DNA from: Pantoea stewartii subsp. stewartii
GTDB lineage: Bacteria; Pseudomonadota; Gammaproteobacteria; Enterobacterales; Enterobacteriaceae
Length of the DNA stretch: 64,000 nucleotides
Reading direction: 5' to 3'
NCBI RefSeq assembly: GCF_008801695.1
Contig: NZ_VZPF01000016.1
Coordinates: 1 to 64,000, forward strand
Numbering within the stretch: the stretch's first letter is position 1; each line of letters begins with the position of its first letter. Shown here piece by piece: positions 7,235 to 11,310 of this stretch. Both the position numbers and the translations under genes were made by a program. The notes beneath the pieces were generated by a model, which was not told the DNA's origin, did not search any database, and was given only the letters and a program-made list of their open reading frames with translations.

Positions 7235-7744
7235 TCATGACGATGCAGAAAGCCCCACCAGGCCGGGCTGAGGGGCTTCCAGTTGAAGCAAAAAGGCTTT
7301 GACCGTCAGGCCACCGGCAAATCCCGTCAGTTTTCCATTGGCCCCAATGACCCGATGACACGGTGCCACAATGGACAACGGATTTCTGCCGTTAGCAGCA
7401 CCGACGGCACGTACCGCTGCCGGATGCCCAATCTGCTCGGCGATCTGGCGGTAACTGCGGGTTTCGCCAAACGGAATAGAAAGTAGCGCCTGCCAGACTT
7501 TTTTCTGAAATGCTGTGCCGTCCATATCCAGCGGTAAGTCAAAAACGCGGCGAGTGCCGGCAAAGTACTCACGTAACTGCGTTTCGGTTTCGCGTAAAAC
7601 AGGATGATTATCGTCGCGCTCACGCGGCGACAACCGGGGATGTCTGCGCACTTCGTCCTGCCATAAAATGGCCGCCAGACCGCGATCGCTGGCGATCAGC
7701 GTTAGTTCGCCCACCGGCGTTATCACAGGTTTGCAGTAATACAT
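7235..7744 (-). CDS. ogt: Methylated-DNA--[protein]-cysteine S-methyltransferase (Ogt)
   Basis: A 169-residue suicide enzyme that moves methyl or alkyl groups from O6-alkylguanine and O4-alkylthymine in DNA to its own cysteine. The active-site motif PCHRVIG is present, with the DNA-binding helix VRAVGAANGRNP before it. It resembles E. coli Ogt and the C-terminal half of Ada. It is divergent from an Ada-AlkA fusion gene that lacks this very domain, so the two together rebuild the Ada activities. A perfect inverted repeat lies in the shared promoter region. Confidence 0.95.
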   Translation of the reverse strand: MYYCKPVITPVGELTLIASDRGLAAILWQDEVRRHPRLSPRERDDNHPVLRETETQLREYFAGTRRVFDLPLDMDGTAFQKKVWQALLSIPFGETRSYRQIAEQIGHPAAVRAVGAANGRNPLSIVAPCHRVIGANGKLTGFAGGLTVKAFLLQLEAPQPGLVGLSASS

Positions 7745-7798
7745 GCTGTTCCCTCCATCACATTGCTGTCTGGCATTATCGCATTTTCGCCACGCGAA

Positions 7799-7853
7799 AC
7801 TGGCTGTTTTCGGTCATTACAATAAACTGTTGTGCTGTCCGAAAACAGCCAGT
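7799..7853. promoter_or_regulatory. Perfect 15-bp inverted repeat between ogt and ada-alkA
   Basis: ACTGGCTGTTTTCGG (7799-7813) and its exact reverse complement (7839-7853) are separated by 25 bases. The repeat is near the middle of the 158-base gap between two divergent DNA-repair genes, one of which has an Ada-type methyl-sensing domain and AraC helix-turn-helix. That makes it a good candidate operator for both genes. It does not resemble the E. coli Ada box as I recall it. Confidence 0.6.
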
Positions 7854-7902
7854 CAATACCTCATGCCCGCGCTACGCTGTCGCTCTTTGCCGGAGAAAAA
7901 CC

Positions 7903-9363
7903 ATGTTTGATTCAGATACCGCTTACCAGGCACTGACCTCGCGTGATACGCGCTTCGATGGTGTGTTTTTTGTCGGCGTGACCTCAACCGGCATTTACTG
8001 TCGCCCGATTTGCCCGGTGAAAGCGCCAATGCAGAAAAACTGTCTGTTCTTCAACAGCGCTGAGGCGGCAGAGAAAGCGCATTTTCGCCCTTGTCTGCGC
8101 TGTCGTCCGGAGCTGGCACCCGGCAACGCCCCCGTGGACAACGCCCACCGCGTGGCCGACCGACTGGTGCAGCGCATTGAAGAGGGCTTGCTGGAAGCCC
8201 ACAGCGGCCTGGATGCGATTGCTGCAGAGTTTGGCATCAGCGCCCGTCAGCTGCGGCGCATTGTGCAGCAGGAGCTGGGCGTCACGCCACTGGAGCTTAA
8301 ACAGATACGTCGTATGCTGCTGGCTAAGCAGCTTCTGACCGAAACCACGCTGCCGGTAACCGAGATCGCTTACGCCAGTGGATTTGGCAGCTTACGGCGC
8401 TTCAATGACGTGTTTCAGGCGCGCTATCGCATGACGCCGGGCGCACTGCGCAAAAGCAGCAACCTGTCGCCGCAACCTGCAACGGACACAATGCGGTTAC
8501 GCCTCAGCTATCGTCCACCTTACGACTGGCAGGCGATGCTGGACTTTTTACGCCTGCGGTTAATGAACGACATTGAAGCCGTTGATGGTGAAACCTACCG
8601 CCGGACGGTGGCGCTGGGCGAATACCGGGGTTGGGTCAGCATTTCGCATCTTCCGGCAAAGCAGGCGCTTCAGGTTGAATTCACCCGCTCTCTCACGCCT
8701 GTGCTGCCTGCCCTGCTGCGTCGGCTGCGTGACCTGTTTGACCTGAATGCTCAGCCACAGCGCATTGCCGAACACCTGCAACAGGATCCCCTGCTGGCGC
8801 AAAGTATTCAGGATTACCCCGGCCTGCGTGTCCCCGGAGCATTTGACAGTGTCGAAATGGGCGTACGCGCCATCCTGGGCCAGCAGGTCACCGTTAAAGC
8901 CGCCACGACGCTCAGCAGCCGCTTTGCTCAGGCATTTGGTGAACCCTGCACCACGCCGTTCCCTGATCTGTCGCGCTATTCTGCGCAACCCCAGCGCATT
9001 GCCCAGGCTACGGTCGATGAGATTGCCCGCCTGGGCATTGTCAGTGCGCGCGTCAGAGCGATTCTGGCCTTTGCGGCCGCCTGTAACGAGGGCAGCCTGC
9101 GTTTCAATGCGACGCTTTCGCCTGACGACATCATGGCGCGCCTGGTGGCCTTACCGGGCATTGGCCCCTGGACCGCCCACTACATTGCCATGCGGGCGCT
9201 GCGCTGGCCGGACGCCTTCCCGAAAGAGGATATCGCCGTGCGCAATAATCTGGGGGGATTAACACCCAAAGCGGCAGACGCGCGCTCACAGGTATGGCGT
9301 CCCTGGCGCAGCTACGCCGTGATGCATATCTGGAAAAGCCTGTCACCGGCCAGTGCGAAGTAA
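7903..9363 (+). CDS. alkA: Ada methyl-sensor / AraC HTH / AlkA DNA glycosylase fusion
   Basis: A 486-residue three-part protein. Residues 1-75 are an Ada-type zinc domain with four Cys (33, 37, 64, 67; motifs GIYCRPIC and CLRC), which in Ada takes methyl groups from phosphotriesters. Residues about 80-185 are an AraC helix-turn-helix domain. Residues about 195-486 are an AlkA-type 3-methyladenine DNA glycosylase with the helix-hairpin-helix LPGIGPWTAHYIAMRAL and the presumed catalytic Asp in KEDIAV. It combines damage sensing, transcription control and base excision. It lacks the Ogt domain of E. coli Ada; the divergent ogt supplies that. ATG 7903 follows GGAG; upstream in-frame codons overlap ogt and show no family similarity. 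Confidence 0.92.
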   Translation: MFDSDTAYQALTSRDTRFDGVFFVGVTSTGIYCRPICPVKAPMQKNCLFFNSAEAAEKAHFRPCLRCRPELAPGNAPVDNAHRVADRLVQRIEEGLLEAHSGLDAIAAEFGISARQLRRIVQQELGVTPLELKQIRRMLLAKQLLTETTLPVTEIAYASGFGSLRRFNDVFQARYRMTPGALRKSSNLSPQPATDTMRLRLSYRPPYDWQAMLDFLRLRLMNDIEAVDGETYRRTVALGEYRGWVSISHLPAKQALQVEFTRSLTPVLPALLRRLRDLFDLNAQPQRIAEHLQQDPLLAQSIQDYPGLRVPGAFDSVEMGVRAILGQQVTVKAATTLSSRFAQAFGEPCTTPFPDLSRYSAQPQRIAQATVDEIARLGIVSARVRAILAFAAACNEGSLRFNATLSPDDIMARLVALPGIGPWTAHYIAMRALRWPDAFPKEDIAVRNNLGGLTPKAADARSQVWRPWRSYAVMHIWKSLSPASAK

Positions 9364-9474: not shown

Positions 9475-11310
9475 ATGGGGTTGCGGTTAGAAAATACAAA
9501 AATTTCGCACAAACTCAGTTTAGGATTTGGACTCGTTTTGCTGTTGGTGGTGGGATCGGGCTCGGTAAGCATCGCGCGTTTTAAAACTATCCATGACGTT
9601 TATGAACAGAGCAACCTGATTTACGACATTAATATTGACGTGTTTCAGGCTAAGGTTAACCGGTTGAAACTGCTGTATGGCGATGAGAAAGCGGGTAAAG
9701 TGATGGCGGATTATATCGCCCATGCCGCTCAGCTGACGCATGATGCCCAACAGTACCGATGGCTGCCCGAGGAGTAAACACAGCTCCAGGAGATCGCCAG
9801 CCAGCTCAGCCACTTTCAGGCCAGCATCAGCGCAATGACCCAGGCCATGCAGTCTCTGGCAGAAACGGGTAAGCAGCTCGATCAGCGCAACATGCAGAGC
9901 CAGTCAACGCTGTACGAAGCGTTGATTAAAACCCAGATGACCGATGCCAGTGCACTGTTTCAGCAACTGCTTGCAATCAGCCAGTTGCGCGATCAGCTTC
10001 AGTTACTCCGTTATGATCCCGCTCATGCCAGCGCGATTCAGTCTCAGCTCACACCGCAGGTCAACGCCATCCAGACCGCTCTCACCACTCTGTTACCGCA
10101 ATTACCTCCCGATGCTCAGACGCAGCTCAACGCGCTGTGGAATGCAACCCTTGAGGTTAAGCAACTCAGTGAACGTTACGCGGCAGGCTTTCTGGCCCTC
10201 AGTCAGGCGGAGAACGCGGTGAAGGTCGATGGCGATAAGAGCAGTGCTATCCTCAAAACGCTTCTGCAGCAGATGAAGGTAGAAAACAGCGACCTGACCA
10301 GGAGTTCTGTTAACCTGACGCTGTTGACGGTTGGCCTTGCTGTGCTGCTGGGCATGTTGATTGCCTGGCTGATTGGCCGACAGATTACTCATCCCGTCAG
10401 AAAGAATTTATGGCTGGCGGAGCGCATTGCTAAGGGCGATTTAAGCGCCGATATCAAACCGGCGGGCCGTGATGAGCTGGGCAAACTGGCTGGCGCGATG
10501 GGCGCGATGAATCAGCGTCTGCGGACAATGATTCTGGAGGTCCGCGACAGCATGCTCACGCTGTCGCAGGCGGCGAGCAGTATTAACAGCGACAACCACA
10601 CGCTCTCGTCCCGCACAGAACAGCAGTCCGCCGCCGTGGTGCAGACGGCTGCCAGCATGGAACAGTTAACCGTTACGGTGAAGCACAACGCAGATAACGC
10701 GCGCCACGCCAGCCAGATTGCTGCTGAAGCGTCTAAAACGGCGGAGCAAGGCGGTGCCGCCGTCACGGAAGTCGTGCAAACCATGGGCGATATTTCTGCC
10801 AGCTCGAAGAAAATCGCCGAGATCACGGCCGTTATCGACAGTATTGCTTTCCAGACCAATATCCTGGCTCTGAATGCCGCCGTGGAAGCGGCACGCGCTG
10901 GCGAGCATGGCCGGGGGTTTGCGGTCGTCGCCAGCGAAGTACGTAGCCTTTCGCAGCGCAGTGCGCAGGCGGCGAAGGATATCGATCAACTGATCAGCGC
11001 ATCGGTCAGCCAAATCGCGGAAGGCAATAACCGCGTTGCGCGCGCGGGCGAGAGAATGGGACAGGTGGTTCAGGCGATTTCCCGTGTGAATGACATCGTG
11101 GGTGAGATCTCTTCCGCCTCGGATGAGCAAAGCCGTGGCATTGAGCAGATTGCGCGTGCGGTCTCAGAACTGGACAGCACCACCCAGCAAAACGCCTCGC
11201 TGGTCTCTGCCTCTGCCCTTTCAGCCACCGCGCTGGAAGATCAGGCGCGCCGACTTGAAACGCTGGTCAAACAGTTTAGCCTGGAACCCGGTCAGACAGC
11301 CGCACGCTAA
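9475..11310 (+). pseudogene. Methyl-accepting chemotaxis protein, interrupted by an in-frame TAA
   Basis: The frame encodes a complete 611-codon chemoreceptor apart from TAA at 9775-9777 (codon 101). Before the stop: cytoplasmic N-terminus, TM1 (about 12-32) and the first helix of an all-helical ligand domain. After it: the rest of the ligand domain, TM2 (LTLLTVGLAVLLGMLIAWLIG, about 281-301), a HAMP domain, and the signalling hairpin with AFQTNILALNAAVEAARAGE. Reading in the same frame across the stop is seamless, so a single base change explains it. It has a FliA promoter and a terminator. Without readthrough only a 100-residue fragment is made, or the part from ATG 9835 if internally initiated. 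Real pseudogene or sequencing error are both possible. Confidence 0.88.

Follow-up and report, generated by a model that had tools for sequence, protein, structure and literature searches.

The Ada box of Escherichia coli has the form AAT-N6-GCAA, according to the available portions of two reports (PMC3788762 and PMC4437013). In the portion available, the latter describes how F114 of E. coli Ada contacts A/T pairs in the B box and identifies the C-terminal methyltransferase domain of Ada as the RNA polymerase contact, at least at ada, with alkA differing (PMC4437013). The Cada2 box of Caulobacter, as presented in the available text, consists of a B box (GCAA), a 3-bp A+T-rich spacer, and an X box (CGG) (PMC10957082). 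Fusions of Ada to AlkA are known from mycobacteria, as a pair with OGT (PMC7432924), and from Xanthomonas and Ralstonia (PMC518961 and PMC1839093); the accessible portions of these papers describe no operator for the fusions, and that of PMC7432924 contains no mention of a promoter, binding site, Ada box, upstream, consensus, or operator. Within the scope of open-license PubMed Central, no literature was found on the half-site motif presented here, and the string TGTCCGAAAAC occurs in three open-license papers that are unrelated by title.

The locus lies in a 64-kb stretch of DNA, referred to here as the window, in which ogt (minus strand) and ada-alkA (plus strand) diverge from start codons 158 bases apart (ATG at 7744 and 7903, respectively). 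As the preliminary description had stated, this divergent region contains a perfect 15-bp inverted repeat with a 25-base gap, formed by ACTGGCTGTTTTCGG at positions 7799 to 7813 and its exact reverse complement at 7839 to 7853. A chance origin had been judged very unlikely, and the shuffles agreed: a perfect 15-bp repeat arose in 0 of 5,000 shuffles of the 158-bp region, the mean number of such repeats across 40 dinucleotide shuffles of the window was 0, and the window itself contained no second one with a spacer of 0 to 60. The conserved unit was an 18-bp half-site that extends 3 bases further inward than each arm and takes the form TG(A/T)CCGAAAACAGCCAGT (read toward the gene, TGN-CCG-N6-GCNA-GT). 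It is directional, and each copy is oriented toward its own gene (Table 1). From these sequence comparisons, the repeat is very probably two opposed activator half-sites (TGNCCGAAAACNGCNAGT) for the neighboring Ada-AlkA protein, a variant Ada box that would activate both genes. On the 3' side of ada-alkA, a gene for a methyl-accepting chemotaxis protein was present as two ORFs in the same frame (9475 to 9777 and 9835 to 11310) split by a stop codon, which may reflect a pseudogene or a sequence error.

Table 1. Features of the ogt/ada-alkA divergent region, in window positions
Feature	Position	Strand	Basis
ogt, methylated-DNA--protein-cysteine methyltransferase, 169 aa	7235..7744	-	ORF; Pfam PF01035, PF02870; NCBIfam TIGR00589 above cutoff
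ogt ribosome-binding-like site, GGAGGGA	7750..7756	-	letters checked; assigned by eye
Putative ogt promoter -10 hexamer, GATAAT, 18 nt past left half-site	7775..7780	-	A2/T6 at +18, 50/53 dereplicated loci
Left half-site, TGACCGAAAACAGCCAGT, toward ogt, includes arm 7799-7813	7799..7816	-	sequence and comparison
A+T-rich spacer separating the 18-bp half-sites	7817..7835	.	sequence, genus loci
TAAACTG at dyad center, in 55/60 genus loci	7823..7829		within spacer 7817..7835
Right half-site, TGTCCGAAAACAGCCAGT, toward ada-alkA, includes arm 7839-7853	7836..7853	+	sequence and comparison
Putative ada-alkA promoter -10, weak, TACGCT, 19 nt past right half-site	7873..7878	+	A2/T6 at +19, 50/53 dereplicated loci, 16/16 single-site orthologues
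ada-alkA ribosome-binding-like GGAG	7892..7895	+	sequence; assigned by eye
ada-alkA, 486 aa: Ada metal-binding, AraC-type helix-turn-helix, and AlkA glycosylase domains; likely regulator	7903..9363	+	Pfam PF02805, PF12833/PF00165, PF06029, PF00730; alignment to E. coli Ada structures

Conservation of the arms in relatives with the same gene pair had been proposed beforehand as a check on the repeat. Regions between ogt and ada-alkA were compared for 80 loci (60 from the genus and 20 from other genera of the family), with duplicates of other loci dropped (L009 to L024, L050, and L086). The best half-site was sought in each direction and was considered recognizable when at least 13 of its 18 letters matched. 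Both half-sites were recognizable in 78 of the 80 regions; the exceptions, in which both genes were present, were a locus whose left half-site carries a 4-bp deletion (L027) and one whose right half-site was lost (L100). In an alignment of 52 genus rows, from which seven had been dropped (six with insertions and one from another genus), the two arms averaged 0.97 and 0.93 identity to the window, compared with 0.77 for the spacer and 0.56 outside the repeat. The distance between the centers of the 18-mers was 37 in 73 of the 78 loci, 38 in 2, 39 in 2, and 29 in 1, a constancy that is suggestive, as an indication rather than a test, of both sites lying on one face of the helix.

The Ada-AlkA fusion was found in 60 of 61 genus genomes, and the only genome without it measured 1.4 Mb. 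Public records containing the dyad numbered 13, belonging to Pantoea (12 records) and Izhakiella australiensis (1 record). The exact dyad was present in just 3 of 392 sampled family genomes, a sample with few members of the genus and many genomes without the fusion; in a comparable family sample, the fusion was detected at an E value of 1e-60 or better in 48 of 391 genomes. In two small genus genomes (L083 and L084), ada-alkA was broken or decayed, with matches in pieces interrupted by stops, and ogt and both half-sites were still recognizable.

Positions of -10-like hexamers were counted in 53 dereplicated loci. Nine loci were removed before this count (L055, L060, L061, L065, L066, L070, L083, L098, and L100), eight of which had -10-like hexamers at +18 and +19, with L100 as the exception. 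An A2/T6 hexamer was located at +18 from the half-site on the ogt side and at +19 on the ada-alkA side, each in 50 of the 53 loci. The runner-up, at 28 of 53, was offset +10 on the ogt side, where the mean score under approximate -10 weights was much lower, and other offsets (8 to 31) reached no more than 7 of 53. The ada-side hexamer is itself weak. On each side, the best -35 match with a spacer of 16 to 18 agreed at three of six letters at most in 76 of 77 loci, and scanning for the consensus revealed no sigma-70 promoter, as would follow if an activator substituted for the -35. Given the fixed -10 distance, each half-site would span roughly -49 to -32, where class II activators bind.

A central promoter for ada-alkA was also considered, with TAAACTG, whose distance from the left arm is constant, as the -10 and CTGGCT as the -35; it was set aside in favor of the outer -10s, which are conserved on either side of the dyad as well as in single-site orthologues. 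The TAAACTG center, like the A+T-rich centers in other genera, is left unaccounted for by the operator reading. Six genus loci (L055, L060, L061, L065, L066, and L070) carried an insert of approximately 80 to 195 bp directly past the ada-side -10, which leaves both half-sites and both -10s intact and would lengthen the ada-alkA leader. Several of these inserts appear to resemble enterobacterial ERIC repeats.

The promoter geometry bears on the direction of regulation. The dyad bound by Ada-AlkA could act mainly as a repressor or autoregulatory operator, the unmethylated protein keeping both promoters down and methylation releasing it. The half-sites lie at the -35 regions, where bound protein could block polymerase, and unmethylated E. 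coli Ada in high amounts negatively regulates the ada promoter, according to the available part of PMC4437013. The lack of a recognizable -35 nevertheless fits dependence on an activator better, and repression needs neither the constant distance nor the constant direction to the -10, which also hold in single-site promoters. Repression as the main role thus appears improbable.

Ada-AlkA orthologues from more distant relatives carried one half-site. Family orthologues with 44 to 48% identity had no adjoining ogt match in the five loci with two-sided flanks. One TGTCCGA(A/T)(A/T)(C/T)(C/T)CGC site was found in 16 of 19 family upstream regions (orthologues of 36 to 48% identity), with a -10 at +19 in all 16, a set that includes near-copies; TGTCCGA was absent from the other three (L118, L124, and L125). 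Across the class, the fusion was present in 38 of 370 genomes, and 29 loci besides the window's own were examined. In 28 of these 29, an ogt match lay downstream on the same strand, spaced as would suit an ada-alkA-ogt operon. The best half-site match comprised at least 11 of 18 letters in 23 of the 29 and was weaker in 6, and the -10 of the 23 scored sites was at +18 in 8 and at +19 in 11 (19 of 23 together). Upstream DNA was left out for G162, for family matches to the AlkA part only (G379, G322, and G035), and for 8 of the 37 class matches other than that in the genome of the window. At several class-wide loci (L190 to L193, L203, L207, and others), the -10 ends only approximately 7 to 10 nt before the start codon, and the ada-alkA message may be leaderless.

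In a tree of 65 proteins, all 31 from dyad-bearing loci fell on one side of a fully supported branch. The dyad is probably derived, with the caveat that the root of this tree is a midpoint. It probably arose once ogt had come to occupy a divergent position upstream of ada-alkA, with an additional half-site evolving to serve ogt.

The preliminary description had attributed an AraC-type helix-turn-helix to the neighboring protein. This domain (PF12833, 6e-24) follows the metal-binding domain (PF02805, 3.4e-29), and residues 4 to 138 of Ada-AlkA aligned with E. coli Ada N-terminal structures. In an alignment of 84 proteins (30 of the 60 from the genus, 20 from dyad-bearing other genera, 5 from single-site loci, and 29 class-wide), the metal-binding cysteines 38, 42, 69, and 72 in E. 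coli Ada numbering, including sensor Cys38, were kept in all 84. Phenylalanine 114, a B-box residue in E. coli Ada, was replaced by Arg in all 84 orthologues, and the half-site letters corresponding to the A/T pairs that it contacts are no longer A/T throughout. The residues of the window protein at DNA contact positions R45, R71, F114, H115, and R118 were K, R, R, Q, and R. Lysine replaced Arg45 in 29 of 30 genus proteins, with variation elsewhere; His115 corresponded to Gln within the dyad lineage and to Gln, His, or Tyr in other proteins; the five single-site proteins had Lys in place of Arg71; and Arg118 was mostly Arg. Five genus genomes (G401, G402, G404, G428, and G436) encoded a second Ada-type protein besides the fusion, with 34 to 36% identity over residues 5 to 173.

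An exact search of 370 class genomes with the commonest class form, TGTCCGAAAA(C/T)GGCNAG, returned 11 matches. Nine of these 11 exact matches (TGTCCGAAAAYGGCNAG) were directly upstream of ada-alkA, including one fusion cut by a contig end; the other two were inside unrelated reading frames, and the reversed control gave 4 matches. Because the pattern was partly drawn from the same loci, this count tests specificity rather than discovery. The regions of ada, alkA, aidB, and ogt in E. coli yielded no half-site match above 12 of 18.

The site might instead be recognized by a regulator unrelated to Ada-AlkA, whether a different AraC-type protein or a stress regulator, that controls the alkylation repair genes, as comparison reveals a site and not the protein that binds it. 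The nine ada-alkA promoters among the 11 exact matches, which include loci with a different gene order, speak against this, as does the fact that the site follows ada-alkA, whose product has a sensor and DNA-binding domain of known autoregulatory type. We regard control by an unrelated protein as unlikely, to the same degree as repression.

Further targets of Ada-AlkA were sought by looking for the arms elsewhere in the genome of the window. Only the two arms themselves matched with fewer than two mismatches, and at up to two mismatches there were 17 matches, versus 26 in the reversed control. The half-site at up to three mismatches gave 80 matches (78 besides the arms), the same number as the reversed control (80), so a wider regulon was not supported. 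Candidate targets among the 78 were rejected, as 29 of 30 examined lie in a stop-free frame of at least 100 codons. A sequence common to two other genera, TGTTCGAAAACGGCGAGT, resembled an ogt promoter and was likewise rejected, as it lies in a biotin-carboxylase-like reading frame. In eight relatives, a looser pattern had about as many matches as its control among the matches listed; in the three single-site genomes whose matches were all covered, the sole zero-mismatch match was the ada-alkA promoter. The regulon at this locus is apparently just ogt and ada-alkA.

Comparison of the two arms within each locus, from which L100 and L027 were left out, bears on whether the repeat acts as RNA. The arms were identical to each other in 15 of 78 loci and unequal in 63, which indicates no conserved hairpin. 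Some letters were side specific, with position 10 being A/G in 28 of 78 loci and position 15 being C/G in 39 of 78. At position 12, both arms had G in five loci and C in four, and they were unequal in 12 of 78, such that change in the two arms is only partly concerted. Exact identity of the arms is not the conserved feature; the 18-bp half-site is.

An attenuator, terminator, or leader structure formed by the repeat is accordingly very improbable. The strand does fold at -40.7 kcal/mol (z score of -5.3 versus shuffles), as any 15-bp perfect repeat would. Besides the unequal arms with their side-specific letters, distant orthologues carry one arm only, neither arm is transcribed if the -10 assignments are right, no Rfam match was obtained, and no terminator-like site was found at 7700 to 7920. 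Intergenic perfect inverted repeats are often mobile or palindromic elements, but this one is a single copy in its genome at zero to one mismatch and recurs at this location in 78 of 80 relatives, and chance was excluded by the shuffles, so that either origin is hardly credible.

Comparison lent good support to the proposed role of the repeat as an Ada-AlkA-linked operator serving both genes, and it established the conservation of the half-site, its direction, its -10 distance, and its tie to ada-alkA through the single sites before that gene. The preliminary description was supported in its suggestion that the element serves both genes, and it needs amendment in that there are two directional sites, one per promoter, instead of a single palindromic operator. 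We infer the remaining steps, namely, binding by Ada-AlkA, its methyl dependence, activation, induction, and class II contacts. Upon alkylation damage, Ada-AlkA would accept on Cys33 (equivalent to Cys38 in E. coli Ada) a methyl group from a phosphotriester in DNA, and this transfer would raise its affinity for DNA. The metal domain would read the CCG box, and the first helix-turn-helix would read the GCCA box. One molecule per half-site would overlap the missing -35 and recruit sigma-70 RNA polymerase in the class II manner, as at E. coli alkA; an alkA-like site position is expected of Ada-AlkA because it lacks the C-terminal methyltransferase domain. The O6-methylguanine transferase encoded by ogt and the autoregulated sensor/glycosylase encoded by ada-alkA would be induced together.

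A broader and more tentative view is that the gammaproteobacterial Ada-AlkA proteins constitute a lineage that has a DNA recognition code of its own (TGTCCGA-N4-GGC-N-AG, with Arg for F114), always acting from a class II, alkA-like position as fusions without the ada-type polymerase contact domain. The doubled site in the lineage of the window would then be a coupled switch, with ogt and ada-alkA fired together from one 80-bp module. Two Ada-AlkA molecules, one per half-site, would make joint use of the A+T-rich center, to which, at a guess, the alpha subunits of the polymerase would dock. This wider scheme is somewhat less likely than not.

If the activator reading is correct, the locus provides a testable operator for an Ada-AlkA fusion, for which none is named in the portions of the literature available on the fusion. 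The adaptive response would be extended to a variant recognition code, in which F114 is Arg throughout the aligned fusions and the site has changed alongside. The pair would also be a natural example of divergent, coinduced genes built from one activator site, and the regulon would become predictable from sequence.

The preliminary description had called the repeat unlike the E. coli Ada box, which is correct for the letters and incorrect for the layout. The A box AAT was absent and CCG-N6-GC was present in 156 of 158 half-sites; the B box GCAA was also absent, with GCCA in both window half-sites and GCCA or GCGA in most relatives (GCTA-like forms also occur). If CCG is taken as the counterpart of the A box and GC as that of the B box, the 3-6-4 arrangement of a 3-bp box, a 6-bp gap, and a GC-led box is retained (CCG-N6-GCCA versus AAT-N6-GCAA). 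The box ends 20 nt before the -10 at ogt and 21 nt before that at ada-alkA, similar to the 22 nt, counted by eye, between the box and TATGCT at E. coli alkA, which we take to be the -10 there. As in E. coli, the element precedes an Ada-type sensor gene and alkylation repair genes, at a fixed position upstream of the -10 (50 of 53 loci on each side and 16 of 16 single-site loci), and the regulator has the same metal-binding cysteines. Unlike in E. coli, three of the five contact residues differ in the window protein (R45, F114, and H115 to K, R, and Q), the sites form an inverted pair common to two divergent genes, and AlkA rather than the methyltransferase domain is the fusion partner in the regulator. 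The arms, unequal in 63 of 78 loci and with no terminator-like site at 7700 to 7920, do not place the repeat among terminators or attenuators. The Cada2 box, as presented in the available text of PMC10957082, is likewise a variant Ada-type site in which a CGG/CCG element replaces AAT. It differs in having GCAA, which neither half-site contains in either direction, and a spacing of 3 instead of 6, and Cada2 is activated at a methyltransferase domain cysteine that Ada-AlkA lacks. According to the accessible portions of the reports, Xanthomonas and Ralstonia have the same protein fusion (PMC518961 and PMC1839093), and the mycobacterial Ada-AlkA/OGT pair shares both the fusion and the partner enzyme with the locus presented here (PMC7432924).
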